Below are positions 1 through 32,970 of a stretch of 60,000 bases of DNA, one piece after another. Under the pieces are notes generated by a model. It was not told the origin of the DNA, did not search any database, and worked only from the letters and a program-made list of their open reading frames with translations. Location of the stretch: contig NC_087083.1 of the NCBI RefSeq assembly GCF_026151205.1, positions 10,663,460 to 10,723,459 on the forward strand, written 5' to 3'. This stretch comes from Bolinopsis microptera. Its lineage: Eukaryota; Ctenophora; Tentaculata; Lobata; Bolinopsidae. Position numbers and translations under genes: made by a program. Numbering within the stretch: position 1 is the stretch's first letter; every line of letters begins with the position of its first letter.

Positions 1-494
1 ATTACCATAACAACACGTTACCATAACAGCACGTTCCATAACAACACGTTACCATAACAACACGTTACCATAACAACACGTTAACATAACAACACGTTAC
101 CATAACAACACGTTACCATAACAACACGTTACCATAACAACACGTTACCATAACAGCACGTTCCATAACAACACGTTACTATACCAAAACGTTACCCAAA
201 TAACACGTTACTATAACAACACGTTACCATAACAACACGTTACCATAACAACACGTTACCATAACAACACGTTACCAAAACAACACGTTACCATAACAAC
301 ACGTTACCATAACAACACGTTACCATAAAAACGCGTTACCATAACAACGCGTTACCATAACAACGCGTTACCAAAACAACACGTTATCATAACAACACGT
401 TACCATAACAACACGTTACCATAACAACGCGTTACCATAACAACGCGTTACCATAACAACACGTTACCATAACAACGCGTTACCATTTCAACAT
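1..494 (-). repeat. 16-bp minisatellite array, left copy
   Basis: About 30 tandem copies of a 16-bp unit reading ccataacaacacgtta on the plus strand. Variants include ccaaaacaac, acgcg for acacg, and a 15-bp form. It starts before the window and decays at the sequence accatttcaacattttacc. The unit is the exact reverse complement of the array at 2521-3148, so the two arrays form an inverted pair. No coding frame is supported. Confidence 0.95.
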
Positions 495-798
495 TTTACC
501 AGGTACACTACAGTGGGTTTGTCATAAAACCAGGATTTGACAAAGAGGGGAAACCTTGTTCTGACGTTTTCTACATATTTCAGGTTAACCTATGAACACC
601 CTTCAGTTTGAGATTTAGGAAGAGGCACTGTGTTCATATTTATCAAATATAATTTTAATCACTCCCCCGCAGCTTCTATACTATTGTGACTAGTCATCTT
701 ACATTTAAATACCAAGGAAGATTTGTACTTATTTGTAGTTGTAACAGTCTCCTAGCTCAATCATTCGAGTGGCCGGCTTCTGGTATACGTTGGCCAAT
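495..798. other. Unique noncoding spacer
   Basis: AT-rich sequence between the left minisatellite and the MITE. A 65-codon open frame at 686-883 runs into the MITE end and shows no family resemblance or splice context. I see no gene here. Confidence 0.5.
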
Positions 799-1860
799 CT
801 GCCGTTCCCTGAGAAAACGCATTAAGTCACATCGATGTCATTTTGAGAAAATGGGACAAACGTGTTCGTCGTTTTTTAAGTAATTTTATTCGCATAAACG
901 GGGTTAATTTTGACATCTATTTGTAAATAAATTATTGTCATATGTCCTAAACATGCTTAAAAGCATAAATTCACCAACACTGATCTACAAAAACCATTTT
1001 CCTCCAGAATAACTGAACTATTTTCCCATCCGCATTGGACTTAATGCCTTTTCTGAGGGAATTGCGGACTTAATGCCTTTTATCAGGATCGATTTCAACC
1101 GATTCCTCTCTAGAAAGGCAGTAAGTCCATTTTTTCTCAGATAAAGTCAACACAGAAAATACAACATTTCTATATTTTTGATCATATCTTTGCAATATAA
1201 TTATGTGGGCCTCCTGTGCATTGCAAGTAAGTAATATTGACGAAAAATGGATAATTTTTCGTTCAAAATGCCTATAACTTCTTAAACATCAAATATTTTG
1301 GAATAATTTTTACAGCATCGTATTCAGCTCGGTCAGACGCATTAATTTGGGTAAAAATATTTAAACATACAATATTTAAAGCACCAAATTTTTCAAAAAA
1401 AGTTTCAATAATTCACACAGGTTCAAAAATTTTGAAAATAATATTTCTTTAAATTTTGAAATATTAGTACCAAAATTGTTTGCTTGCTGAGCTGATTACG
1501 ACCGCATAAAAATTGTTTCGATATAACTAAAACTGTGGAAGTTATAGGCCAAAAACTATAAAAACTGCAAATAAAGTCTGGACTTAATGCCTTTTCTCAG
1601 GGAATCTCAAGGAACAGAAAAAGTTCCCTCAGAGAAGGCATTACAAATGGACTTAATGCCTTTTCTCAGGGAAGGTTTTGGGATAACGAGCTAAATATTC
1701 ACGTTTTGTGTGACTTAATGCCTTTCGCGGCAGCTAAAACAGTATTTTGATAACTTGATTCATAGCTTAAGTTGTAGAGAATCTTCTCCTGAAAATTTTG
1801 GTACCAATATCTCAAAATTTCCAAAAAATGGACTTAATGCGTTTTCTCAGGGAACGGCAG
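799..1860. mobile_element. MITE with 30-bp TIRs and iterated internal motif
   Basis: Positions 799-828 (starting CTGCCGTTCCCTGAGAAAAC) are an exact 30-base reverse complement of 1831-1860. CAAT occurs on both flanks (795-798 and 1861-1864), consistent with a 4-bp target duplication. The TIR core GGACTTAATGCCTTTTCTC recurs inside in both orientations near 1038, 1066, 1117 (inverted, diverged), 1579, 1622 (inverted), 1649 and 1710. No transposase frame is present, so it is non-autonomous. The superfamily is uncertain: a 4-bp TSD fits several groups. Confidence 0.75.
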
Positions 1861-2520
1861 CAATGTCCTCCACTCTTTTTTCTTTTGATTTGAATAGACG
1901 CTATTATATCAAAAGTGGTAATATTTGTTGTGAGGACACGATCTTAAATTTAAAGTAATTAAAATTATTTTCCAAATTTTCATTTTCATATTGTCGCCCT
2001 TTAGAGCCGCACTGAAATGGTTAGTAGCTACTGCTAGCACTTGTGCCTGCTGCTGTCCATATGGGCGGGATATAAGCACACTATTTCATTTCATTATTCT
2101 ATACCCAAATACAGAAACACCTTTAAAACTTTTAAAAATGCACAATCATCTACAGTTTGATTACAAAGGAGACCTGCCAATGTTTGTGGTAAACTTCGCG
2201 TTGGAGAGGCAAATGACACAGCTAGGTAACATCAAGATGGTCCTGGAGAAATGTCTACTCTCCCCTGGGTTCAGTGATTCTGGGATATCCTTTTGAGTTG
2301 CTAATAGATAGTTTAACTGATCATTTTCATTAATTAGATTTATTTACTTGGTTATGCAATGTTTGTGAAAAGATTCGAGTAAACGAGTAAAAGAAAAGAA
2401 AACGCTTAACTCGCGTAATTGCTATCTCACATTTGGTTAAATATTTTATAATCACAATATTTACCATCCCACATTAGCTGGTTTAACGGACTTTAGTTAC
2501 CCTCCTATATTATCGAGTGG
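1861..2520. other. Spacer with one possible coding fragment
   Basis: Mostly AT-rich noncoding sequence. At 2138-2296 an open plus-strand frame reads MHNHLQFDYKGDLPMFVVNF and continues to a stop at 2296. The residue composition looks protein-like and a GT (gtaaca) lies near 2225, but no matching partner exon or family was recognised. It may be a captured or orphan exon. Confidence 0.3.
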
Positions 2521-3148
2521 TTATGGTAACGTGTTGTTATGGTAACGTGTTGTTATGGTAACGTGTTGTTATGGTAACGTGTTGTTATGGTAACGTGTTG
2601 TTATGGTAACGTGTTGTTGTGGTAACGTGTTGTTATGGTAACGTGTTGTTATGGTAACTTATTGTTATGGTAACGTGTTGTTATGGTAAAGTGTTGTTAT
2701 GGTAACGTGTTGTTATGGTAACGTGTTGTTATGGTAACGTGTTGTTATGGTAACGTGTTGTTATGGTAACTTATTGTTATGGTAACGTGTTGTTATGGTA
2801 ACTTATTGTTATGGTAACGTGTTGTTATGGTAACTTATTGTTATGGTAACGTGTTGTTATGGCAACTTATTGTTATGGTAACGTGTTGTTATGGTAACTT
2901 ATTGTTATGGTAACGTGTTGTTATGGTAACTTATTGTTATGGTAACGTGTTGTTATGGTAACGTGTTGTTATGGTAACGTGTTGTTATGGTAACGTGTTG
3001 TAATGGTAACGTGTTGTTATGGTAACGTGTTGTTATGGGAACGTGTTGTTATGGGAACGTGTTGTTATGGTAACGTGTTGTTATGGTAAAGTGTTGTTAT
3101 GGTAACGTGTTGTTATGGTAACGTGTTGTTATGGTAAAGTGTTGTTAT
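2521..3148 (+). repeat. 16-bp minisatellite array, right inverted copy
   Basis: About 39 units of ttatggtaacgtgttg with common variants gtaacttattg and gtaaagtg. In the middle (about 2765-2940) two variants alternate, giving a 32-bp higher-order period. This is the same unit as positions 1-494 but inverted. Both sides of this array carry the sequence tagttaccctcct (2496 region and 3150 region). Confidence 0.95.
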
Positions 3149-3399
3149 AGTTACCCTCCTTAACGGCTTATAACACGATTCCCTCTCGACTGTAGGCCTC
3201 TCGCGCCAAAACTCAGGAGATAGCAGAAATTCTGACTCCAGCAGAAACCTAATCAGATTACCTTCTACTACTTCACTCGGTTCAATCGGTCAGAACTTTA
3301 TTGACAAAGCACATATTTGTTTCATAAGTTTGGGCGAATTCCGATGTGCTGCTGTCCGCGGACAAAGGTTGTGTTACCATTTTCACTTTCCCCTCCCCT

Positions 3400-3952
3400 C
3401 CCACATCTCTTTTGTCCCTCCCTCTTGCCCCTCCCACCTCTCTCTTGTCCCTCCCTTTTGCCCCTCCGTCCTCCCCCCTCTTCCCCTTCCCCTCCCACCT
3501 CCCTCTTGCCCCTCGCTCCTCTCCCCCTCTTTTCCTTCCCCTCCCACATCCCTCTTGCCCCTCCCTCCCCTCCCCCTCTCATCTCCCCTCTCTCCCCCTC
3601 TCCCTCTACCCCCCTCCCACCTCCCTATTGCCCCTCCCTCCCCTCCCCCTCTTTTCCTTCCCCTCCCACATCCCTCTTGCCCCTCCCTTCTCTACCCTCT
3701 TCCCCTCCCCCTCTCATCTCCCCTCTCTCCCCCTCTCCCTCTACCCCCCTCCCACCTCCCTATTGCACTTTCCTCCTCTCCCGCTCTTACCCTCCCCCTC
3801 TCACTTCCCTCCTCTCCCCCTCTTCCCCTCCCACCTCCCACCTCCCTCTTGCCCCTCCCTCGTATCCCCCTCTTTCCCCTCCCACTTTCCTCTTGCCCCT
3901 CCCTCCTCTCCCCCTCTTTTCCCTCTCCCTCTCCCCTTCCCCTCCCCATTTC
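3400..3952. repeat. Polypyrimidine minisatellite
   Basis: Nearly pure C/T on the plus strand, built from imperfect repeats of about 50 bp containing cccacctccctcttgcccct. Long Pro/Leu/Ser-rich open frames (plus) and Gly/Arg/Glu-rich frames (minus) across it are by-products of the composition, not genes. It lies just upstream of the first coding exon of the START gene. Confidence 0.9.
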
Positions 3953-4003
3953 CTATTTTATTTGCCGATAAGTAAAATTGTAGGTTGTGGCAGATGGACG
4001 GGA

Positions 4004-8953
<4,950 letters not shown>

Positions 8954-10079
8954 GGGAAACTGACGTCATGTATCTGTAACGCAGTTCAAACACAAGGATT
9001 CGTTTTTATACGAGGGCTATAAGGCCTGGAACTGTTAATGATGATGTGATGAAAATTTATCGGAATACTTACGATTCTATTTCATCACACATTTATGTGT
9101 TTGTGAACAGTTTATTAAAAAACAGTTTATTAAATAAACTGGATTAAGGAGGATTTACTTGGCCGAGGGTTACAAAACCCCGAGATTTATTAGCAGTTTA
9201 AATTTTACTGCTTTATTAAAGTCAGCACAGTATAGTGAGATTTTATAATTGATTTGGCACAATATTGTTAGGTTTTAATGGATGATCATCCCCAAATTAC
9301 TTTTTTTCTTAAAATAATGGTTGTAAAAGTAAAACATAAAGTTTTGTACAATGTTTTGTGAAATTATGAAATTTTATTGAATTCTCCACAACTTTCTACA
9401 GTTAACAACTGCTGACTGCAACGTTTTAAATATGAAATCTAGTGCAGTATATCTTACTCGTCTGTATCTTGTATTTATCCTATGAAATAATTTCCACCGC
9501 GCTATATTGTCAAGCTGAACCTCCTGCAGTTTCTGAATACCCTCGATTTGCTTGAATCTCAAAATGACGAGCTACAGCTGCGATTTTTAATTTTCAGTGT
9601 TACAACTTACAAGATTCTTATAACTTTATAACACTGACAACCATAAAAGTCCATCAGCTCGTCGCGGGATTACGATATAAATTTCGTTAATTAACAATTA
9701 TACAAAGAAATACAATAGTAATGGTTGGTGTGTGGCTATACAGATAACAATGAGTCGCTATAACAATGAGACACTTATAAGAACACGCCTCGACAGAACA
9801 AATACTCCCAATCAGGATATTAACATGCTGATTTCCGTGATTTCCCTGATCTCCTTGTTATTTCCAGATCTTACATTTTTAATTTTATCAATAGTTAAGT
9901 TTCCATGCCCTGACACATTTTTTCTTCTAATTGTTTTTTAATTTCTTGGACGTTAGAAAGTAAAAATCAAATATCGATTTTAATTCGTCGTGAAGATTTG
10001 CTTGAAAGTAACATATTATATTGATTACAAGTAAGTTTTTAGAAACTTTAACATTTTGAATTTCACTTATACGCATCAC
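8954..10079. other. Intergenic, no gene seen
   Basis: AT-rich sequence 3' of the START gene. AATAAA-like signals (for example about 9133) could serve its polyadenylation. Short open frames at 9374-9562 (minus) and 9732-9941 (plus) show no family or splice context. Confidence 0.5.
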
Positions 10080-21200: not shown

Positions 21201-24200
21201 GGCACGCCCTCTAAACACACTACGTGCCTCTGGTCATGAATGTCGTGCCTGTTGGGATTACATCTGAGTTCTGACTGCACTATGACAACAGTCATGGTGA
21301 CAACAGTCATAGTATGATAGTATGGTAGGGCCCTTAAATTTTGAGAATAAACTATCGGCGACATTCTTACAATTCCTCTACAATTCTGTTGGTTATAATG
21401 CTTTTTACGGTCAGGTCCTTCGTTACTCTTCCATTATCTCTGACCTTAATTCTTTGCTGTGTTCTACCAACACCCTTTATAGGACACTTCTTTCAAGATG
21501 TTATAATGACAGACTCCTGAAGAGTAAATTCAGAAAGCTTCTGAAAGACCGACCTAGTATTCTGTACAAATACAGTATACTTGATGTCAGCGACATCCTT
21601 GACATCACATTTAACGTGGATAGGTGATCACTGACGAGTGATTGCTAGGGGGTCTTGGCACATTAAACCGGTACAGGTGTTAAACCCCCGAAACCGGTGT
21701 GCCAAGTCATCTGCTGATGACGTTCACATAACATTATTTCCTCTCTCCTTTATTCCTTCCGTCTTTTCTTATACTTACAGTTCAGTTACTTTATTTCACC
21801 AGGTCTACCTAAGGATCAATTATTCTTTGGCTGGGTTTCACTTCTGGTATTGGCTTCATTCCCGTTCCTTTTCCTTATTCTTTATATTTATCTTTTATAT
21901 AGTTTAGTGAGACTGTCTGTACTATCTTTGCACTTTGTACTGCCAATGTCCATATCACGTAAAATATTGACCTTATAAGGTAATCGTGACGTCGCGTTAT
22001 CCATGACAGTTGGCACGAGTACTAAACAGACCGTGCCTGCAGTCACGTCAGGCACGGATTTTTAGCTAGGTACAGCTTTTTGAAAGACGTGCCTGACATG
22101 CCTCGGGAGTTGTCACGTATCCTTGGCACGCCCTCTAAACACACTACGTGCCTCTGGTCATGACTGTCGTGCCTGTTGGGATTACATCTGAGTTCTGACT
22201 GCACTATGACAACAGTCATGGTGACAACAGTCATAGTATGATAGTATGGTCGGGCCCTTAAATTTTGAGAATAAACTATCGGCGACATTCTTACAATTCC
22301 TTTACAATTTTGGTAGAACACCTCTTCTTCATGATATTCATTAATCGTTAAGATGAGTAAGTGGGGCGTTGTTTAGGAGTCGCATGACGTAATGTTGATA
22401 GGTGAAAATTCTGTTTTTCCTCCACTAGCGAGATCAACAAATGAAACAAGCAGTTAATCACACAAAAATATTTTCGATGGTCTACATCTTCATCAGTTCT
22501 CAAATTATTTGTTATATAGTATTATTTGTTATATAGTTTTTTATAGTGTTGAAAGTATTAAAACTTTCAACACTACTATGTAACAAATAATTTGAGAACT
22601 GATGAAGATGTAGACCATCGAAAATATTTTTGTGTGATTAACTGCTTGTTTCATTTGTTGAGCTCGCTAGTGGAGGAAAACAGAATTTTCACCTATAATC
22701 ATTAATCGTTGCACAGTAGTTATGAGTTAAAAATAAAATTACCAGGTTGGCTACCAGTCGTACCTATGGTGTTTATAGAGTGGGATCTTGAGTCGACACC
22801 TTTCGAAGTTAGAACTGATAGCGTGCTGGGGAGTGACGAAACGGTGAGAGTGGTCTTCTTCTCTGCTGGTGGAGATTATGCAGGAGCAGTCTACATCTTC
22901 TTCAGATCTACTCTACAATACTGGCTCGACTGGTGCAGCAACTCCAACACTAACTTCCCTGTTAATCCCCCCTCTGCTACTGACAAGGTGTGGCGTATCA
23001 CTCTAACCAGAACTGCAGGTGATTTCAACCTTAGACACCACCCTAGACTAGTGATACACTGTAACGAGGTGGAGGTTCTCAACATACTGCTCTCTGAATC
23101 AACGTGCAGTAATAACGTTTGGAGCACTATCTGGAACAGAGACGTGACAAAGATAAGGTTTGATTCCGCCGACAGAGCATCTGATTACTACAGACAACAA
23201 CCAGGTGACTAATAACAACAAGCACTGGTTTAACAAAGTAACAATTTAAACTTTAATTTATAAATAAACTAACTTGCTGTTTCTCTCGTAAGCTCGTGAT
23301 TACGTGTTTTTGTGCCTGCATGAGCAAAAAAAAAACACGTAATCACGAGTGTGTTATTTAACATAATATAACACATATATAGGATATGGGATATAGGATA
23401 GTTAGCATATTGTTACTTATAACTTAATATAGTGGTCATAATTTTATCAATTACTGTTCTCCGAATGAGATAGAATCACATTCTTTCACTGAAGGCAGAG
23501 TTATAATCATATTGGCGATAGCGGATTGCAAAATAGCTAACTATAATTTAGAAATATTGCATATTTTGTAGTAGACATCATGGAGACAAGCCATTTTCAG
23601 CTACTAAAGGTTAAAACAATTATCAATTGAAAACTGATGTTTTTACAAAATCTCTTGAACATAAGCAGTAAGGTATTTTACCAAACAAACTCAAAACTGT
23701 TTTGGTTCAATATTTATTTTGCAGAGTTTACACAGTATGTGCATTATGCAATGTGCATTGTGCCTTCATAGTTTGTTGATTAGGCGAATTTTTAGCGTTA
23801 ACCCTGATGACTGATAACAATTTGAATTAGTATTGGGCTTAGAATTAAGAAGGAAAATTCGTGGTACGAAAAGACATGAACCACAAAAGTCTGGGTGGCA
23901 ATAATTTCCTCGAAACACCGTGGTTGTGTGGATATTTAATTTTTTACATATTGTTTTAAATCTAATGTTATTGCAACACATCTGAAGTGTACTTAATTCC
24001 TCATCTTATATAGTAAAGATTTTCTTATCTTCCACTACGATTTTCCAGTTGTAACGTTATAATTCCAGAACCGTGTGGAGAAGGAACATATCGGAATGAT
24101 GCTATGACCAGCTGTGAGACATGTGACGCTGGATTGACACCAAACTCTGACAAAACAGCCTGTGGTAAGATAACTTTAAAGCTTTTATTTAATATTATTG

Positions 24201-27200
24201 GTATGTTTTAAATTTAAATTTAACTGTGCTATAGAATGAAAACCGAGGATATTGGTACTCGCAATAACTTCTTAATAAGGTAGTTCAAACGAATTGCTGC
24301 TTAAAGATTTCCTAATTCTTCAGAGCCATGTCCAGCTGGAAGCTACAAGAACATTGAGATGAACACATGTGAAGAATGTCCTGATAACACGATCAGTTCA
24401 GAAGGAGCAGCCTTGTGTACAACTTGTGAACTTGGCCAGGAACGAAACTCAGGGAGAACTAAATGTGGTAAGGATTGTTAACAAGAACCGAGCCGAGATG
24501 ATTATATCTATATATAGATGGGCAAAGATATAATAAGGCTTCAGACGGGACAAGGATAAGGCGCCAGATAGGGCTTAGAATAAAGAAGGCAAATTTGTGG
24601 TACGAAAAGACAAGAACCGTAAAAGTCTGGGTGGTAATAATTCTATCAAAAAACTGTGGTTGTGTGGATGATTAATTTTTTACATATTGTTTTAAATCTA
24701 ATGTTATTGTAACACATCTGAAGTGTACTTAAGTTCTTATATAATAACGATTTTCTTATCTTCCACTACGATTTTCCAGTTGTAACGTTATTATAATTCC
24801 AGAGCCGTGTGGAGAAGGAACATATCGGAATGATGCTATGACAAGCTGTGAGACATGTGACGCTGGATTGACACCAAACTCTGACAAAACAGCCTGTGGT
24901 AAGATAACTTTAAAGCTTATATTTAATATTATTGTTATGTTTAAAATTTGAATTAAAGGTGCTATAGAATGAAAACCGAGGATATTGGTACTCGCAATAA
25001 CTTCTTAATAAGGAAGTTCAAACGAATTGCTGCTTAAAGATTTCCTAATTCTTCAGAGCCATGTCCAGCTGGTAGCTACAAGAACATTGAAATGAACACA
25101 TGTGAAGAATGTCCTGATAACACGATCAGTTCAGAAGGAGCAGCCTTGTGTACAACTTGTGAACTTGGCCAGGAACCAAACTCAGGGAAAACAAAATGTG
25201 GTAAGGATTGTTAACAAGAACCGAGCTGAGATGATTATATCTATATATAGATGCGCATAGATAGGATAAAGGTTGAGAAGGGATAAGGATAAGGCGCCAG
25301 ATAGGACTTAGAATCAAAAAGGCAAATTTGTGGTACGAAAAGACAAAAACCGTAAGTCAGGGTGGTAAAAATTCTATCAAAAAACCGTGGTTGTGTGGAA
25401 TCTAATTTTTAGGTACATATTGTTTTAAATCTAATTTAATTGTAACACATCTGAAGTGTACTTAAGTTCTAGGGACTACGGGTGGAAGATGAATAATTGA
25501 TATTCCAACAGCATCTTGTTCCCTGCATTGTGCTGATTCCGGGAAGCATTTTGTTTACGCTCTCATCATTCTGTAGGATGAGATATCGTTCATTTAAAAT
25601 TGGGTAATTATAGGCCTGTCAAGGATTTCAGCCTAATTAAGAGCTGATCAATTGCAGCTAGTTGTGCCATATAAGGGATAACTGAGGTCACGTGACATTC
25701 AGTCCTATCACGTGACCGCTAATCCTATCACGTGACCTTGATTCGTAAAGCCTCGGGCACGTGATCACATTCGTAACGTGTCGTATGCCGACTAGGAGAT
25801 TTTGTGACGTCACCAGAGCTGAAGCTACTTGATCAGGCCTTATATGGAATAATATCGTGTATCGGGTGTAATTGGACCCAATTAGAGCAGCTGAGCGCTC
25901 AATTATAGCAGCATCTGGTACCACCTTCTGAAACCCAGCAGACAGCTGGCCCAGAGAATCGAAATTAGAAGGATTTTTTATTGATGGAAATCGAAGCGGA
26001 AACCTTGTAACCCTATGTTTTCGATGACGCCGAACAAGATTAAACAGGTTATAATTGTCCTACTCTCGTGTAAATTGCTCTAAAACGTGATTGAAATTGT
26101 AATGATGCTATCAATTGTAATACAGTTTTTACATTAAGCTGAGCGGCGTAACGGCTGGCATTCCTGGGCCGCACTCATCCCAGATTGTCATTCCGCCGCA
26201 GCTTCAATTTATCTGGATATTACAGCCTGGGGTCCCCAGGTAACGACTGGAACCGCTATATCTGCCTAATCTCAGCTATTGTAAATAACGAAGCCTGTGA
26301 TCCGCACATCAGGTATTGACCACATTGAACGGGCTTGAATCGAACAAGCCGTGTTATTAATATTAAAGATATTAATACCAAAAATCGTATTACTAGATTA
26401 CCTTCTTGTCATTTGTGCGAAGTGCGTACTCTTTATACTGCAGTTTGAAGTGCATTACAGAGTTAATGTTATGTGTATTATACAGTTACAGTTATGTAAC
26501 TGTTGCACACAGTAAAACTTACTGCGATCGCGCTGATAAGAAGTGAACTGATAAGAGTCGAGTAAAATTGCAACGTAACTAAAATCAATGTAACACCGCT
26601 ATATGAATAGTGATCATTTCTCAAATAGTTTTCTCAATATTGCAATGAAGTTGTCCGATTTTATTGATGGAACGTGTGACAGCCTTCCATGTCACAGTCC
26701 TCCGTCAAACAAGGACATCCTTCGTTTTCTTTTGAGCCACAAGGAAAACCATGCGACTCATGTCGATTTAATGCTGGCCGAGGTTTCAATTTTGATATTA
26801 AGTCATTACAGTACCATCGAAATGTACAGGCAAACGGACTTCTTTCAGCCTTGCAATATTGTCAAGTGAGTGCTAGTGTTTTTTAGGTATTTACCCTACA
26901 GCACAGGTTGTTCACGATGCATCAGTCCGGTTTCAAACATATATTTTCTGCTGGGGGAAAATAAGAGAAATATATAAGCCGATCGATCTTTCATAAATTA
27001 ATCTACAGATGTTTGAAACCAAACCAATGACCAATGTTTCATGAACTCCTCAAGGTGACGCAGATAGAGCTGTTCGGGAAAAAGGCGTGGCTCTCTGCAG
27101 GCAGCTTATAGAGCTAGAGCAGAAGGGCATGAACCGGACAATACGCCCGAATGGAAAACCGCGGATATTTTGCAAGCCAGAGATTAACAGAAATGCAAAA

Positions 27201-30200
27201 TCGTACCTTGACCTTGTCATTTACAACACTGACATCGAGGATAAAGATCCGGTGAGAAAGACTAAGTCTTTCAAACCGTACCATTTATTTGGTCTCTGTT
27301 ACAAAACTGCGTGCAGTAAGTTCATTTCAAATTGTACTTACTATGACGTAACTATTAATATTATATTATTGTATTAATAAAGTTATTGACATACGTTTGT
27401 ATTCAAAGCTATAAGGTCAAAGTGAAAACAATACGGATGGTATCGAATTTAAAAAGGAAAGTTTATGATAACAAGTTATATTTCAGAAGAGCTGAAGTGG
27501 GCTGCAGTCACTATTCCATCGGTAGTAAGGGTGCATCCCTCTGATCCTGATCAATTCGACAGGTTCATAGAATCACCTTTGGTGACGAAATATCCCTGCC
27601 ACCAGCAAGCAGTCGAAAGAGCGGTGGCACTGATGACAGAATCAAAGCTGAAGTGTGCTAACAAAGACATGAAAGCAGGACACCACATTGTTGTCTCTGA
27701 GGAGAGGCAACAAAATCCAGGAAAAAAAGAGGAAGTTCAAAAAACTAATGAAATGATTTATTAAAAGAGAACACTCGTTATATAATATTTTGTATGATGT
27801 TTCACAATATTGAGTTTATTCCCGAAAATTTCGAGACTACTTCTTTAAAATTAGCTTTCTCTGGATGATATGCAGACTGCAGCAAAGAAATATCAAACAG
27901 TCATAAATATGTTAGTGATTCCATCGCTATACTTCGTCCACACACTGAACTTAGCAATCTTGATTATAAGTATTAAACAATGCAATATATATAAATAGAT
28001 TTTAATTCCAAGTGTTCGTAGAATAATTGAAAACGTAGCACTGTAAATGCGCCAGCTATTCAACTTATGATAACTTAATCAAATTGATGACATTCAAGTG
28101 CATTTTGAAAAAATTTACCCGATACTATGATATTTTTTATAGTAATAACACGACGTTCAATTCAAGCCCATTCAATGACTGATGTGCGGATCACAGGCTT
28201 CGTTATTGACAATAACTGAGATTAGGCAGATATAGTGGTTCCAGTCGTTACCAGGGGACCCCAGGCTGTAATATTCAGAAAAATTGAAGCTGCGGCGGAA
28301 TGACAATCTGGGATGAGTGCGGCCCAGGAATGCCAGCCGTTCAGCTTAATGTAAAAACTGTATTACAATTGATAGCATCATTACAATTTCAATCACGTTT
28401 AGAGCAATTTACACGAGAGTAGGACAATTATAACCTGTTTAATCTTGTTCGGCGTCATCGAAAACATAGGGTTACAAGGTTTCCGCTTCGATTTCCATCA
28501 ATAAAAAATCCTTCTAATTTCGATTCTCTGGGCCAGCTGTCTGCTGGGTTTCAGAAGGTGGTACCAGATGCTGCTATAATTGAGCGCTCAGCTGCTCTAA
28601 TTGGGTCCAATTACACCCGATACACGATATTATTCCATATAAGGCCTGATCAAGTAGCTTCAGCTCTGGTGACGTCACAAAATCTCCTAGTCGGCATACG
28701 ACACGTTACGAATGTGATCACGTGCCCGAGGCTTTACGAATCAAGGTCACGTGATAGGATTAGTGGTCACGTGATAGGACTGAATGTCACGTGACCTCAG
28801 TTATCCCTTATATGGCACAACTAGCTGCAATTGATCAGCTCTTAATTAGGCTGAAATCCTTGACAGGCCTATAATTACCCAATTTTAAATGAACGATATC
28901 TCATCCTACAGAATGATGAGAGCGTAAACAAAATGCTTCCCGGAATCAGCACAATGCAGGGAACAAGATGCTGTTGGAATATCAATTATTCATCTTCCAC
29001 CCGTAGTCCCTATTAAGTTCTTATATAATAACGATTTTCTTATCTTCCATTACGATTTGCCAGTTGTAACGTTATAATTCCAGAGCCGTGTGGAGAAGGA
29101 ACATATCGGAATGATGCTATGACAAGCTGTGAGACATGTGACGCTGGATTGACACCAAACTCTGACAAAACAGCCTGTGGTAAGATAACTTTAAAGCTTT
29201 TATTTAATATTATTGGTATGGTTTAAATTTGAATTTACTGTGCTATAGAATGAAAACCGAGGATATTGGTCTAAAATGAGAAGTACGAATGAGTCGGACT
29301 TTTCAATTTACTCGTATCGTACGTACTTTTCAATTCTACTGAAAAGTTCTCCTTCTAGAAATCGATGGAAGAGTTCTAAATCGCATGTTACGGACTAATA
29401 TTGAGCGTTTTCAAAAACTTGTGTTTCTATATTCCAAATCCAATCGTCCATTAACCTAAAGTTTAACTTTAAGAGAAACAAGCTGTTTAAATAAGTAAAT
29501 TGTCTAGTAATTTTGTAGAATTTTTGTTTTACTTTTAAATGCTTGCCTGACCTAAAAATTGTGTGTTTAATTTGTTCGCGAACGGTATATTTTCTCTAAC
29601 ATTGGTAAACAATTACATTTTACAACGGCCCCAATGATAATAATAAAAAAAAAATTCTATTTCTATCTCAATCTGAATCGTACGTCGTATGAGTCGGACT
29701 TTTGAAAGTCACGTACAAGAACGTACTTTTCCCCCTAAACGAGTCCGTACTTCTCATCTTAGATATTGGTACTCGCAATAACTTCTTAATAAGGAAGTTC
29801 AAACGAATTGCTGCTTAAAGATTTCCTAATTCTTCAGAGCCATGTCCAGCTGGAAGCTACAAGAACTTTGAAATGAACACATGTGAAGAGTGTCCTGATA
29901 ACACGATCAGTTCAGAAGGAGCAGCCTTGTGTACAACTTGTGAACTTGGCCAGGAACGAAACTCAGGGAGAACAAAATGTGGTAAGGATTGTTAACAATA
30001 ACCGAGCTGAGATGATTATATCTATATAGATGGGCATAGATAGGATAAAGGTTGAGACGGGATAAGGATAAGGCGCCAGATAGGACTTAGAATCAAAAAG
30101 GCAAATTTGTGGTACGAAAAGACAAAAACCGTAAGTCAGAGTGGTAATCATTCTAATTCTATCAAAAAACTGTGGTTGTGTGGATATTTAATTTTTCACA

Positions 30201-32970
30201 TATTGTTTTATACGCTAATCTAACTGCGTATAATGCGATTACACTATTAATTGCTCGAAGCGCAGCCGAGTGTAAATTGATACAATAATCGCACGATCGG
30301 CGAAGCCGAGTTCGATTATTGCAATTATTTCATGAAGCGCAGCCGAGTGCAATAACTGGTGTAATCGTATTATACATGCAGTTATAGATTCGCGTATAAC
30401 TCCACCGCGCTTCTGGTGTTATATATAATCGGTGCGATTAGTTTATAATCGCACGGACTGTGCTGTTAGTTGCTCTAAAAACAATGAGATTATAAACTTA
30501 TCGCACTGTTTTGAGAGCACTGAGCAATTCAAAGAACAGCGCACTTCAATCCTCCACTTGAACCCGAAACCTCCTCCGAGAAACAAAGTAACGTCATATA
30601 TTCCGCCGACTCTCTCTCGGTTGATTTGCACAATCTAGAAGCTCCACAAAAATGTCTGATAACGACCTCAACAGAGAGTTCAATACAGATAAGAAAAGGA
30701 AACATAGGATAACCGTCCGATGCTCATTGCTCCTGTTATGTGATTGGTCGGATCTGAATCAATACAAGTGACATAAGTCATTGATTGCTATTGGCCGCTA
30801 GGATGGGATGGACCAAGAATCGGCCCGTCCCTATTATCTGCAGTTGTGATGATTGTTTGAATGTTTTGCTTGCCTGCTGTGGATTTTCAGACCACCCAAG
30901 TATCACCCGTTAAATCACCTCTGAAAGCTATTAATATATCACAGTATCTTTCAGAAAATCAGTGTGATTAGTTTTGTAATCGCACCGAATATATTTTCGG
31001 TTGCTCTCAAAGCAGTGCAATTAGTTTTGTAATCGCACTCCCTGGAAAAAACCGGTGCAATTATGAAAATAATAAGTGGCCGTCAAATAGGTCAAAAGTG
31101 GAGTTATAGATTTATAAATGTAATTGTAACACATCTGAAGTGTACTTATATAATAACGATTTTCCTATTATATATATATCTCCCAAAACGATTTGCCAGT
31201 TGTAAGTGTAACGTTTTAATTCCAGAGCCGTGTGGGGAAGGAACATATTGGAATGATGCTATGACAAGCTGTGAGACATGTAACGCTGGATGGAAACCAA
31301 ACACTAACAAAACTGCCTGTGGTAAGATAACTTTACATTTTATATTATTGTTATGTTTTAAATTTGAATAAACTATGCTACAGAATGGTAAACTGTATAC
31401 AGTATTTGAGACTTGGACCCCCGAGCAAACGATAGTATAGTTATGTTAGAGGTTGCTTGAAAGGGTTCGGGTTGGGACAGGAAAATTAAATCGCGGAAAA
31501 GAACATAAGAAACCGACAAAATAACCATTATAATTGTATCACACAACCCAATTAATCAGTTTAACTTGATTTAATTAATATGACATTATATCGTCATCGA
31601 CAGTGAGCTGTACGGGACTGAAGGCTGAGTGGACAACTGCGATCAGAACAACAACAAGGTTCCCAGTAGTCCCAGGAACCGTGGTGGAAGTGACATGCTC
31701 GGACTCTGGAGCTCTCAATAAAGGGAGCAGCGAGGTGACCTGGGGGTCCTTTCCGAAATGAAACTTAGTAGTAAATATTGCTTAGTTTTCCCTTTTTTGC
31801 TAAAATCCGTTCCGAAAACCAACTTAAGTAACAAAGTTAGCAAATTTTCAAGCAAAATTTTTGAATTAAGTTTTTACTTCGATTTTTGCTTAGTTTCAAC
31901 TTAAGAGCTATTTTTGCTTAAGTTGCTTCCAATTTTTCATTTTTTGCTAATTTTTTTAAGTTTGGTTCAGACCAACCTTAGAATTGTAAGTTTTTACTTA
32001 ATATCCCAAATTTCATTGCAAGTTGATTGAATTGAACAATTTGAACAATAATTCAGTGTTCATAAAAGGATTTTCTTTAGATTTGTTTGGAGAGGCGAAT
32101 CATACACAGTTTAGGTTCTAAAAAGGATTTTAAAGTTATCATTTATCAAGAAAAGTAATCATTAACAATATTATTCCGTACATTAATTCCTTTTCTGATT
32201 TCTTCCGCCTCGTTCGGCTGCCTTGGAGGGGCAGCCCGCCGGGATTGTTCAGCTTGCTCTTCTCTCATATCTTGAAGAATGTGTGGCAAAATTTCTGGAT
32301 CACGAATTCTCCTATTACGGCAGTAATTATGAAATACAACGCATGCAGCAATGATATCGCAACTAATTCAAGCGACCTTTCAAATAAGCTTTCTCAGCAT
32401 TAGCAAGTTGCAACAGTAAAGTCTTCTCTTCAGAAGTAAACGAGCGTGCTCTTTGTTTGCCGGCCACACTCATGGTAACACTACGAGGAAACAAATTAGG
32501 GAGATTCAGATTTAATCACAGTGCAGATTCGAATTTCAATAGTGAATATTAGACCTCATAAAATTAACATTTATTGATTATCAAATTCAAATTGCGATAT
32601 CAAATTCAACTCAACATGAATGGTTATATTCATGATAACAAAATCCATGGCACACCAACAAGCACGTGATCGCACCAACAAGCAATTGCATGACGAATTA
32701 CGTCATCAGAGTTTTTGCGCGCATTTTAGGCGCGCATTTGTTACTTGCACGTGTAAATTTGTAACTTTGACGCGTTTCGTAAACACTTTAAGTAAAAGTT
32801 TCGGAAACGCTGCACTTTACTTAAGTAGTGTTTCGGTAAGGACAAACATGATTTTACTTGGCGATGACTTAAACTAAGTAAGAACTTAAGTTTAATTTCG
32901 GAAAGGACCCCCTGCACCTCAGGAACGGAATTTATTTTCGATTTCAATGAACCAGAGTGTATAAATACAG
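18299..32970 (+). CDS. Secreted modular Cys-rich protein with duplicated exons (3' end not found)
   Basis: Exons by eye, all phase 1 at both ends after the first: signal peptide 18299-18356 (MVIFLTALFFAGAAATDDD); 22746-23204; A-type 24069-24164, 24803-24898, 29084-29179, 31226-31321; B-type 24324-24467, 25057-25200, 29838-29981; sushi-like 31604-31742 continued at 32915-32970. The 153-residue second module (FFSAGGDYAGAVYIFF ... NRDVTKIRFDSADRASDYY) is unrecognised. A repeats (EPCGEGTYRNDAMTSCETC) and B repeats (EPCPAGSYKNIEMNTCEECP) match the ephrin-receptor-like/GCC2-GCC3 Cys-rich family. The last exon has four Cys in CCP style (VSCTG, VEVTC, EVTC, EPEC). It is probably an extracellular adhesion, recognition or matrix protein. 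The final exon is split by a Harbinger element, so this allele may be broken. No transmembrane or stop exon was found. Confidence 0.75.
18370..18475 (+). repeat. 28-bp tandem repeat
   Basis: Four copies of a unit containing ttagaatatcgtattcaaca, just inside intron 1 of the modular gene; the last copy is diverged. Confidence 0.85.
18888..18948. repeat. G-run/C-run palindrome around CTGCAG
   Basis: A run of about 25 G interrupted by one A, then ctgcag, then about 20 C. It is a perfect fold-back and also quadruplex/i-motif prone, so run lengths in the assembly may be unreliable. Confidence 0.8.
18958..19172 (+). repeat. 25-bp tandem repeat (33-bp variant)
   Basis: About nine units of cgcaaactaaaccgtccact plus acctc. 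Two to three longer units contain an extra cagtgtcc, giving a simple higher-order pattern. Intronic. Confidence 0.9.
19830..20703 (+). pseudogene. Retroelement reverse transcriptase, 5'-truncated and frameshifted
   Basis: The frame at 19936-20703 carries RT motifs: ILRQTKGIPMGGNSSSQFAD (fingers/palm GIPMG motif), CRYVDDLNTMN (catalytic YVDD intact) and VNYLDINISMNNSGHVATKL, then KLYNKLDDFNFPVV. An upstream portion in a different frame (about 19845-20040, YTNLDLQVVQSLLFELIELL) matches the region after motif A, so a one-base frameshift lies near 20040. The element starts abruptly before it. The GIPMG/RYxDD style is shared with a widespread invertebrate RT group; Penelope-like is suspected from the tandem arrangement. 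It lies on the sense strand of intron 1 of the modular gene. Confidence 0.75.
20461..22308 (+). repeat. Head-to-tail 924-bp duplication of the retroelement 3' part
   Basis: Positions 20461-21384 and 21385-22308 are nearly identical, differing by scattered single bases. Each unit contains the last 81 RT codons, the stop and about 680 bp of 3' sequence ending tacaat. The second unit begins at the codons SVGYNAFYGQ directly after the 3' end of the first. Such partial tandem copies are typical of Penelope-like elements but could also arise by unequal exchange. Confidence 0.9.
20733..20788 (+). other. Conserved hairpin after the RT stop
   Basis: cttggcac (20733) pairs with gtgccaag, an inner accggt/accggt stem follows after a ttaa bulge, and the loop is acaggtgttaaacccccgaa. 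It is present in both tandem copies (also about 21657-21712). It may be a structured element of the retroelement RNA. Confidence 0.55.
22398..22696. mobile_element. 299-bp near-perfect palindrome (fold-back MITE)
   Basis: Arms of about 120 bp (22398-22519 and about 22575-22696), starting ataggtgaaaattctg and ending with its complement, with a small inner hairpin gttgaaagt/actttcaac. There is no coding capacity. It lies 50 bp upstream of the second exon of the modular gene. Confidence 0.85.
23293..23349. repeat. Hairpin with 19-bp perfect arms
   Basis: ctcgtgattacgtgttttt pairs with aaaaacacgtaatcacgag around a 19-nt loop. It is intronic, downstream of the second exon of the modular gene. It may be a very short fold-back repeat. 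Confidence 0.75.
25470..29012. mobile_element. 3.54-kb DNA transposon with ~0.88-kb terminal inverted repeats
   Basis: The ends read TAGGGACTACGGGTGG and its complement. An 8-bp duplication TTAAGTTC flanks both sides (25462-25469, 29013-29020). The paralogous intron at about 24731 shows the empty site (ctTAAGTTCTTATATAATA). TIRs span about 25470-26361 and 28143-29012; the middle of each carries the same uninterrupted 78-codon frame (25688-25924 minus and 28558-28794 plus), showing high identity. Each TIR has four closely spaced tcacgtga sites (25687-25765 and mirror). The termini (A2, G5) and 8-bp TSD fit hAT best; such long TIRs are unusual there and recall Mutator-like elements. Confidence 0.9.
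26603..27764 (+). CDS. Unknown 262-residue protein encoded inside the long-TIR transposon
   Basis: Three exons by eye: 26603-26865, 27068-27315 and 27487-27764, with consistent phases (2, then 1), giving 789 nt. Landmarks: ATHVDLMLAEVSILILSHYS, EMYRQTDFFQPCNI, VALCRQLIELEQKGMNRTIR, NRNAKSYLDLVIYN, then IPSVVRVHPSDPDQFDRFIE, YPCHQQAVERAVALMTESKL and a Lys/Gln-rich basic tail. I see no DDE catalytic pattern, BED/THAP zinc finger or hAT dimerisation signature. The PCHxQAVER stretch recalls uncharacterised repeat-associated proteins in invertebrate genomes, from memory and with low certainty. It could be an accessory protein of the element, or a captured host gene. An alternative first-exon frame (start at 26689) and acceptor at 27054 are possible. 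Confidence 0.5.
29271..29762. mobile_element. 492-bp MITE with 8-bp TSD
   Basis: The ends CTAAAATGAGAAGTACG and the complement of CTAAGATGAGAAGTACG form a 17-bp TIR with one mismatch. ATATTGGT is duplicated at 29263-29270 and 29763-29770. Paralogous introns (about 24249 and 24979) show the uninterrupted gatattggtactcgc. The 8-bp TSD suggests a hAT- or P-type source, and there is no coding capacity. It lies in the intron between A3 and B3 of the modular gene. Confidence 0.85.
30215..31112. mobile_element. Composite palindromic insertion(s)
   Basis: Compared with the paralogous introns, about 0.9 kb is inserted between ttgtttta (30215) and aattgtaacacatctg (31117). A 164-bp inner element (30221-30384) has ends taactgcgtataatgcgatt and complement, and carries aagcgcagccgagtg twice. 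A second part (about 30395-31107) is bounded by tataactccac and gtggagttata. It contains three copies of a hairpin of the form gcgattagttt-taatcgc (30434, 30960, 31015). The 68-codon open frame at 30432-30638 shows no family. Confidence 0.6.
32146..32361 (-). pseudogene. Harbinger nuclease (HARBI1-like) C-terminal remnant
   Basis: Minus-strand frame ending at 32146 reads CDIIAACVVFHNYCRNRRIR, DPEILPHILQDMREEQAEQS and an Arg/Pro-rich stretch before the stop. The IxAxxVxHN pattern is the hallmark near the C-terminus of DDE_Tnp_4/HARBI1 nucleases, downstream of the last catalytic acid. The catalytic core itself is deleted, so it cannot act as a transposase. Confidence 0.75.
32363..32473 (-). pseudogene. 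Myb/SANT-like Harbinger DNA-binding protein, N-terminal remnant
   Basis: ATG at 32473, stop at 32363, 36 codons: MSVAGKQRARSFTSEEKTLL then LQLANAEKAYLKG. The RxRxFTxEEkxlLlxL start is typical of the Myb/SANT/trihelix protein that accompanies Harbinger nucleases. The rest of the domain is missing at the deletion junction next to the nuclease remnant. Confidence 0.65.

Follow-up and report, generated by a model that had tools for sequence, protein, structure and literature searches.

The locus considered here raises a simple question: what, if anything, is encoded by a transposon whose ends are intact, but whose apparent product is a 262-residue protein lacking visible transposase motifs? The transposon occupies positions 25470-29012 of a 60,000-nucleotide stretch of the Bolinopsis microptera genome (contig NC_087083.1, positions 10,663,460 to 10,723,459 of the forward strand; hereafter the window, to which positions refer unless otherwise noted). 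A first-pass annotation of the window described it as an element with hAT-like termini and ~880-bp inverted ends encoding an unknown spliced protein. Our answer, to which we attach a probability of roughly 0.82, is that the window copy is a non-autonomous, internally deleted member of a cut-and-paste family with terminal inverted repeats (TIRs) of ~0.88 kb, and that its parent would have encoded a DDE (Asp/Asp/Glu) transposase of hAT-type architecture. The lineage appears divergent, recently active, and hAT-like, with long TIRs in the style of Mutator-like elements (MULEs) and Galileo.

Exact boundaries and recent spread

The boundaries proposed in the first-pass annotation are borne out by alignment of the two arms and by the flanking target site duplication (TSD), an exact 8-bp TTAAGTTC on both sides. 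The arms are ~880 bp long (~850-880) and nearly identical toward the tips: by BLAST, the outer pair (25470-26084 and 28398-29012) runs for 615 nt with one mismatch, inner pairs follow at 98% identity (26083-26147 and 28336-28400) and 95% identity (26150-26319 and 28172-28341), and similarity weakens further inward to end at ~26372 and ~28130. Given their length, the inverted arms are real rather than a product of chance. The empty paralogous site reported earlier also stands: a host repeat (24437-24989), which shares 92% identity with the flanks once these are joined, carries TTAAGTTC once and lacks the element. The tips (TAGGGACTACGG) can likewise still be called hAT-like, the hAT tip consensus being of the TAGGG type.

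Searching the left arm against the host genome (264,652,675 bases in 232 contigs) places it at no fewer than 27 distinct locations, at 96-100% identity; this count is a lower bound, with 40 of 439 candidates scored and 42 matches collapsed by hand. In the fourteen copies with both tips that were read for TSDs, these are an exact 8 bp in nine cases, 8 bp with one mismatch in one, and an exact 9 bp in four, with no evident shared sequence among them. Among 13 copies, identity over the left arm's outer 615 bp averages 98.9% (range 96.75-100 over 78 pairs, using the top BLAST segment). With arms ~99% alike between copies, the spread of the family is recent, in agreement with the recent mobility suggested by the first-pass annotation.

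One copy on contig C8 (L049, 238-6553) has arms of ~890 bp and only 65 bp, yet a perfect 9-bp TSD; one short end may be enough for transposition, unless the arm was lost once the element had inserted.

Each arm of the window copy also contains three 20-bp tandem units starting TCACGTGAC, which are candidate subterminal repeats that might be bound by a transposase. The motif CACGTGA occurs four times in the arm, compared with at most two in 1000 mononucleotide shuffles, but it is also present 24 times in the window outside the element (both orientations). In Hermes, BED domains bind subterminal repeats and ~220 terminal bp are required at each end (PMC10368747; here and below, papers are cited from excerpts of their text), which makes a binding role of the TCACGTGAC units plausible, no more.

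A fuller copy and a family of internal deletions

The genome search that the first-pass annotation had proposed recovers a fuller member among the places carrying the arm, L003 (C12:14948575-14957461), with a length of 8,887 bp. Compared with the reverse complement of L003, whose positions we call parental, the window copy consists of parental 240-1812 fused to 7163-9126, with ~5.35 kb missing. We read the interior in 17 copies: the window copy, L001 and L002 (as one), L003-L013, L023-L025, and L049; the interiors of L013 and L023 (left tip only) and L025 (right tip only in the stretch read) were seen in part. The exons carrying the first and second candidate catalytic aspartates (D1 and D2) and the candidate catalytic Glu are found together only in L003, and the remaining 16 copies have been deleted in part, rearranged, or interrupted by insertions, at breakpoints that vary from copy to copy. 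Junctions in other copies differ from that of the window copy; those at parental 1848/6528, 2771/7394, 2647/7578, 1340/8288, 1449/8012, and 1843/7599, for example, share 0-2 bp, and further ones share up to 12 bp (L024). Filler is present at the junctions of L008 (2 bp) and L049 (~84 and 134 bp); L049 retains D1, D2, and the CxxH motif without the exon bearing the ARW motif and most of the Glu exon. L001+L002 (11.2 kb) combines an internal tandem duplication with two inserts, and L011 includes ~2.6 kb without a match to L003. On this comparison, the window copy lacks a complete transposase gene, the deleted middle being the part with both candidate catalytic aspartates.

The left breakpoints are clustered: 5 of 15 main ones (hand-picked) lie within 36 bp, at parental 1812-1848 (window ~27046), just beyond a weak stem-loop at window 26920-27029. 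Simulation gives a chance of 1e-5 for such a cluster if breakpoints are uniform over parental 240-8235, and 4e-4 if they are limited to 240-3100. The stem-loop is only suggestive, with a DNA fold z of -1.9 and 9 of 200 shuffles folding equally well. The cluster could be a point at which gap repair stalls.

The parental gene encodes a transposase-like protein

As modelled, the core of the L003 gene comprises nine spliced exons between parental 4645 and 7865, joined across eight GT-AG introns into 560 open residues, in which FDG, DGT, CxxH, ARW, and QxVER motifs are ordered and spaced as in hAT transposases. When five sequences of the host genome are aligned, FDG is retained in all three sequences covering it, DGT or DNT in 4/4, CxxH in 4/4, and both ARW and QxVE in 5/5. 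The spacings in L017 and L003, respectively, are 72 and 70 residues from D1 to D2, 32 and 32 from D2 to His, 130 and 131 from D2 to Trp, and 324 and 353 from D2 to Glu, leaving 194-222 between Trp and Glu; a PF05699-positive hAT protein of the same genome has D2-His, D2-Trp, and D2-Glu spacings of 32, 89, and 356. The layout of the L003 protein thus looks hAT-like, with modest support from sequence. Comparison of L003 with the diverged relative L032 gives nonsynonymous and synonymous divergences (dN and dS) of 0.037 and 0.24 for exon 8, and a dN of 0.13 with saturated dS for exon 9, which indicates purifying selection, as for a working transposase.

Two related families, L019 and L020, are ~35-47% identical in the exons matched. 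Their TIRs of 973 and 738 bp, respectively, have arms 99% identical and tips TAGGGCCTGTCG, with two TCACGTGA per end and 9-bp TSDs (2/2); long ends are therefore not confined to one family.

Fragments of the same group occur in other settings. Locus L034 (G000:C9:4073500-4078500) holds four related C-terminal-exon pieces spaced every 917-918 bp, a tandem array (satellite) made from a transposon fragment. The stretch G000:C6:15.37-15.85 Mb is dense with diverged fragments of this transposase group and is perhaps a heterochromatic region or a trap for transposable elements. At L016 3637-5451, a reverse transcriptase open reading frame (ORF) resembling those of long interspersed nuclear elements continues without a change of frame into the central part of a related, L017-type transposase, giving a fused frame of 1010 aa.

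Similarity to hAT elements and its limits

As described in the literature, hAT elements have TIRs of 10-25 bp, lengths of 2.5-5 kb, and 8-bp TSDs (PMC3942097); in their transposases, which contain CxxH and Trp, an insertion domain parts the aspartates from the Glu (PMC4763223), and an N-terminal BED zinc finger is ascribed to all of them (PMC10368747). The present family resembles Hermes, Ac/Ds, and Kat1 in its TAGGG-type tips and mostly 8-bp TSDs, in the order Asp, Asp, CxxH, Trp, large insertion, Glu, and in its internal deletion derivatives, which are of the Ds kind (PMC3260210). Profile similarity points the same way. Local hhalign of the five-sequence profile against L035, a hAT of this genome (PF05699, E 3.7e-10), gives a score of 49.5 and a probability of 82 over 81 columns, a score attained by 0 of 100 shuffles (at most 25.4), and L043 and L044, of the same hAT family as L035, repeat the match.

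Several observations weigh against this reading. At E values up to 10, Pfam returns no family for the 560-aa L003 core or the spliced L017 protein, nor does either match the C-terminal dimerisation domain PF05699, for which 150 matches are listed in the host genome. The hhalign match begins ahead of D2, ends shortly beyond CxxH, and involves a single hAT family; the ARW and Glu segments are left unaligned, the global mode yields nothing, and ORFs from another five PF05699 loci, which cover mainly C-terminal parts, score at most 19.2. AlphaFold2, applied to L017 with introns read through and a 15-row alignment (14 of the rows exon pieces), gives a mean predicted local distance difference test score of 42.6 and a predicted template modelling score of 0.24, values too low for a usable model. 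The candidate catalytic Asp/Asp/Glu were assigned by conservation and spacing alone; the L003 splice sites were chosen by hand, in a model covering parental 4645-7865. Two decayed relatives outside the five-sequence profile depart from the motifs, L026 with FDR and CxxR instead, and L033 with loss of the aspartate at D2 and of the CxxH cysteine. The ends, too, differ from those of hAT elements, with TIRs of 0.7-1 kb rather than 10-25 bp and 9-bp TSDs in 4/14 full copies. Finally, abortive gap repair after excision, as the source of the deletions, is something that we infer.

Pfam finds no BED zinc finger in exon 1 or the L003 core. A PDB sequence search with a single protein finds nothing at E up to 10, and two weak matches from a profile search of the PDB (E 0.29 and 0.76) were taken as chance. 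No relatives were confirmed in two scans of viral contigs and one of bacterial/archaeal contigs. Genome searches with PF18758 (KDZ) and PF21787 (P) were silent, as were their controls, and hence uninformative. The first-pass annotation had looked to profile searches of the 262-residue product for an identity, and no part scanned has a Pfam match; it had also named a known transposase between the same TIRs of other copies as evidence that would refute it, and this is borne out by half, in that L003 does carry a transposase-like gene there, but one with no Pfam match.

Among the features listed for hAT elements, the family has, judged by sequence only, the DDE triad with a large D2-Glu insertion, CxxH, and Trp, as well as profile similarity in the form of a local match to one hAT family. 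It has neither the short TIRs and 2.5-5 kb length (the fuller element being 8.9 kb; PMC3942097) nor a match to PF05699. With two listed features present, two not, and TSDs of mixed length, we file it in hAT only with reservation: that it works like a hAT has better support than that it is one.

Alternative placements

It is also conceivable, though we hold this only tentatively, that the family and its relatives constitute a separate DDE superfamily, which would be characterized by a hAT-like catalytic layout, MULE/Galileo-like ends, CACGTG subterminal repeats, and recent activity. Searches of PMC, by titles and abstract openings and with Repbase and Dfam outside their scope, found no paper on this family. 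In Repbase, hAT families from one or more cnidarians are listed by number, hAT-4_NV being the naming example (PMC4455052); a paper on miniature inverted-repeat elements of corals (PMC2872659) concerns TTAA elements and is unrelated.

The ends invite comparison with MULEs, which are described as having long TIRs and 8-10-bp TSDs, both of which are found here; in particular, Muta1 of Aedes aegypti makes TSDs of 8 or 9 bp with no preferred sequence, has subterminal tandem repeats in its TIRs and many shortened derivatives, and shares CxxH and W with hAT (PMC5225508). The present family resembles it in TSD length, in long TIRs with subterminal repeats (its tandem TCACGTGAC units lying within the arms), in CxxH and Trp, and in its many shortened derivatives. 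The catalytic core does not follow: in Muta1 (D283-H307-W401-E419; PMC5225508) D2 and Glu are 136 residues apart and Trp and Glu 18, against 324-353 and 194-222 here. Nor does the L003 core match the MULE domain PF10551, despite 88 MULE matches in the host genome, and MULE ORFs of five loci reach at most 17.1 in hhalign, the level of shuffles (a sixth locus, L039, has no ORF of 180 aa). With the compact D2-Glu spacing and PF10551 both missing, we judge a Mutator-like parent improbable.

The 262-residue protein and the deletion junction

We return to a parent with hAT-type architecture and to what its deleted copy in the window retains. As read from these comparisons, the 262-residue protein is exon 1 of the longer parental gene fused to the last two exons. 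Identity in exon 1 is 96-98% for many copies, falling to 43-51% for several diverged relatives, and the remnant of the penultimate exon is ~93-97% identical to that exon in the closest copies; compared by eye, the C-terminal tail of the last exon departs from the L003 tail, a small frameshift being the apparent cause. Since other copies have these pieces as separate exons within a longer gene, the cargo or accessory gene that had been suggested is rejected; a very divergent transposase, the other role offered, comes nearest, with the proviso that a complete one is not encoded in the window.

That the window encodes the spliced protein is not confirmed. Exon 1 ends in phase 2 and the penultimate exon requires phase 1; the 262-residue frame requires an acceptor after 27067, and both acceptors weighed for the parental exon, one after 27054 and one after 27063, lead to a stop after 88 residues. 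Moreover, the first intron of the 262-residue model crosses the deletion junction (Table 1). An 88-residue product of exon 1 is possible.

KP-type repressors are known for P elements and would provide a precedent for a real short protein expressed from the window copy, for example, a repressor made by internally deleted copies. An acceptor after 27067 does leave the 262-codon frame open, and exon 1 is retained in many deletion copies. However, both parental acceptors close the frame early, and the fusion hangs on the window copy's own junction, whereas the junctions of other copies differ; we consider such a protein very improbable. TSDs of 8 bp occur in the P superfamily. Least probable of all is a P-superfamily, Galileo-like parent: Galileo proves that a P-type cut-and-paste transposon can have TIRs of such size (up to 1.2 kb), but it makes 7-bp TSDs with consensus GTAGTAC (PMC2775673), as against 8 or 9 bp without evident shared sequence here, and the P/Galileo features (P-type RNase H/GTP-binding domains, 7-8-bp TSD) are not matched, as TSDs of 9 bp occur and no part scanned has a P-type Pfam domain.

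Features of the window copy and its host locus

Table 1. Features of the transposon copy and its target site, in window coordinates.
Feature	Start	End	Strand	Evidence or remark
Empty paralogous target site, single TTAAGTTC	24729	24736		Adjacent copy of host tandem repeat
Left TSD TTAAGTTC	25462	25469		Exact 8-bp match to 29013-29020
Left TIR, tip TAGGGACTACGG	25470	26345	+	Outer 615 bp equal to right arm bar one site
Three 20-bp tandem units starting TCACGTGAC (candidate)	25688	25747	+	Left arm; mirror image at 28735-28794
First coding exon of parental gene	26603	26865	+	Open frame; ends in phase 2 at GTGAGT
Internal deletion junction	27045	27046		Parental 1812 joined to 7163 at shared AC
Penultimate-exon remnant	27064	27315	+	Parental acceptor after 27063, donor GTAAGT after 27315; out of frame with exon 1
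Last coding exon, QAVER motif (candidate catalytic Glu)	27487	27764	+	Alignment with relatives
Right TIR, tip TAGGGACTACGG on minus strand	28155	29012	-	Arm alignment
Right TSD TTAAGTTC	29013	29020		Exact 8-bp match to left TSD

The host gene at the insertion is tandemly repeated, and the element appears to lie in one of its introns, with a cysteine-rich exon on either side. One host exon peptide has sub-threshold Pfam matches to NCD3G, ephrin-receptor-like, and TNFR-like domains, and the other has a weak NCD3G match. The exon-intron repeat around the insertion (23832-31387) has matches of 93-98% identity at 40 or more other scored places on ten contigs, two of them in the window, and so resembles a repeated gene module dispersed widely through the genome.

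A possible history and its meaning

The observations suggest the following course of events. A transposase supplied by a fuller member would first recognise the long ends, perhaps by way of the TCACGTGAC units, then excise the element, and reinsert it by a staggered cut of 8 or 9 bp, a chemistry that the TSDs would reflect. The break left by excision would be copied back from the sister or homologue, in a synthesis that may often halt early, and, to judge from the junctions, the ends would then be rejoined with little or no shared sequence. The outcome would be a copy with arms intact and gene gutted, as in the window, which could still move if transposase were supplied in trans.

For annotation, the locus carries a caution: gene models that span deletion junctions can pass for new proteins. 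For the evolution of these transposons, its interest lies in the ends. Excerpts of the Muta1 paper treat MULE and hAT transposases as related (PMC5225508), and the two groups have very different ends despite that relationship. A lineage that joins hAT-type catalytic order to near-kilobase TIRs and mixed 8- and 9-bp TSDs could show ends and cut length changing while the chemistry is kept, and this lineage is recent and has a fuller member open to testing.

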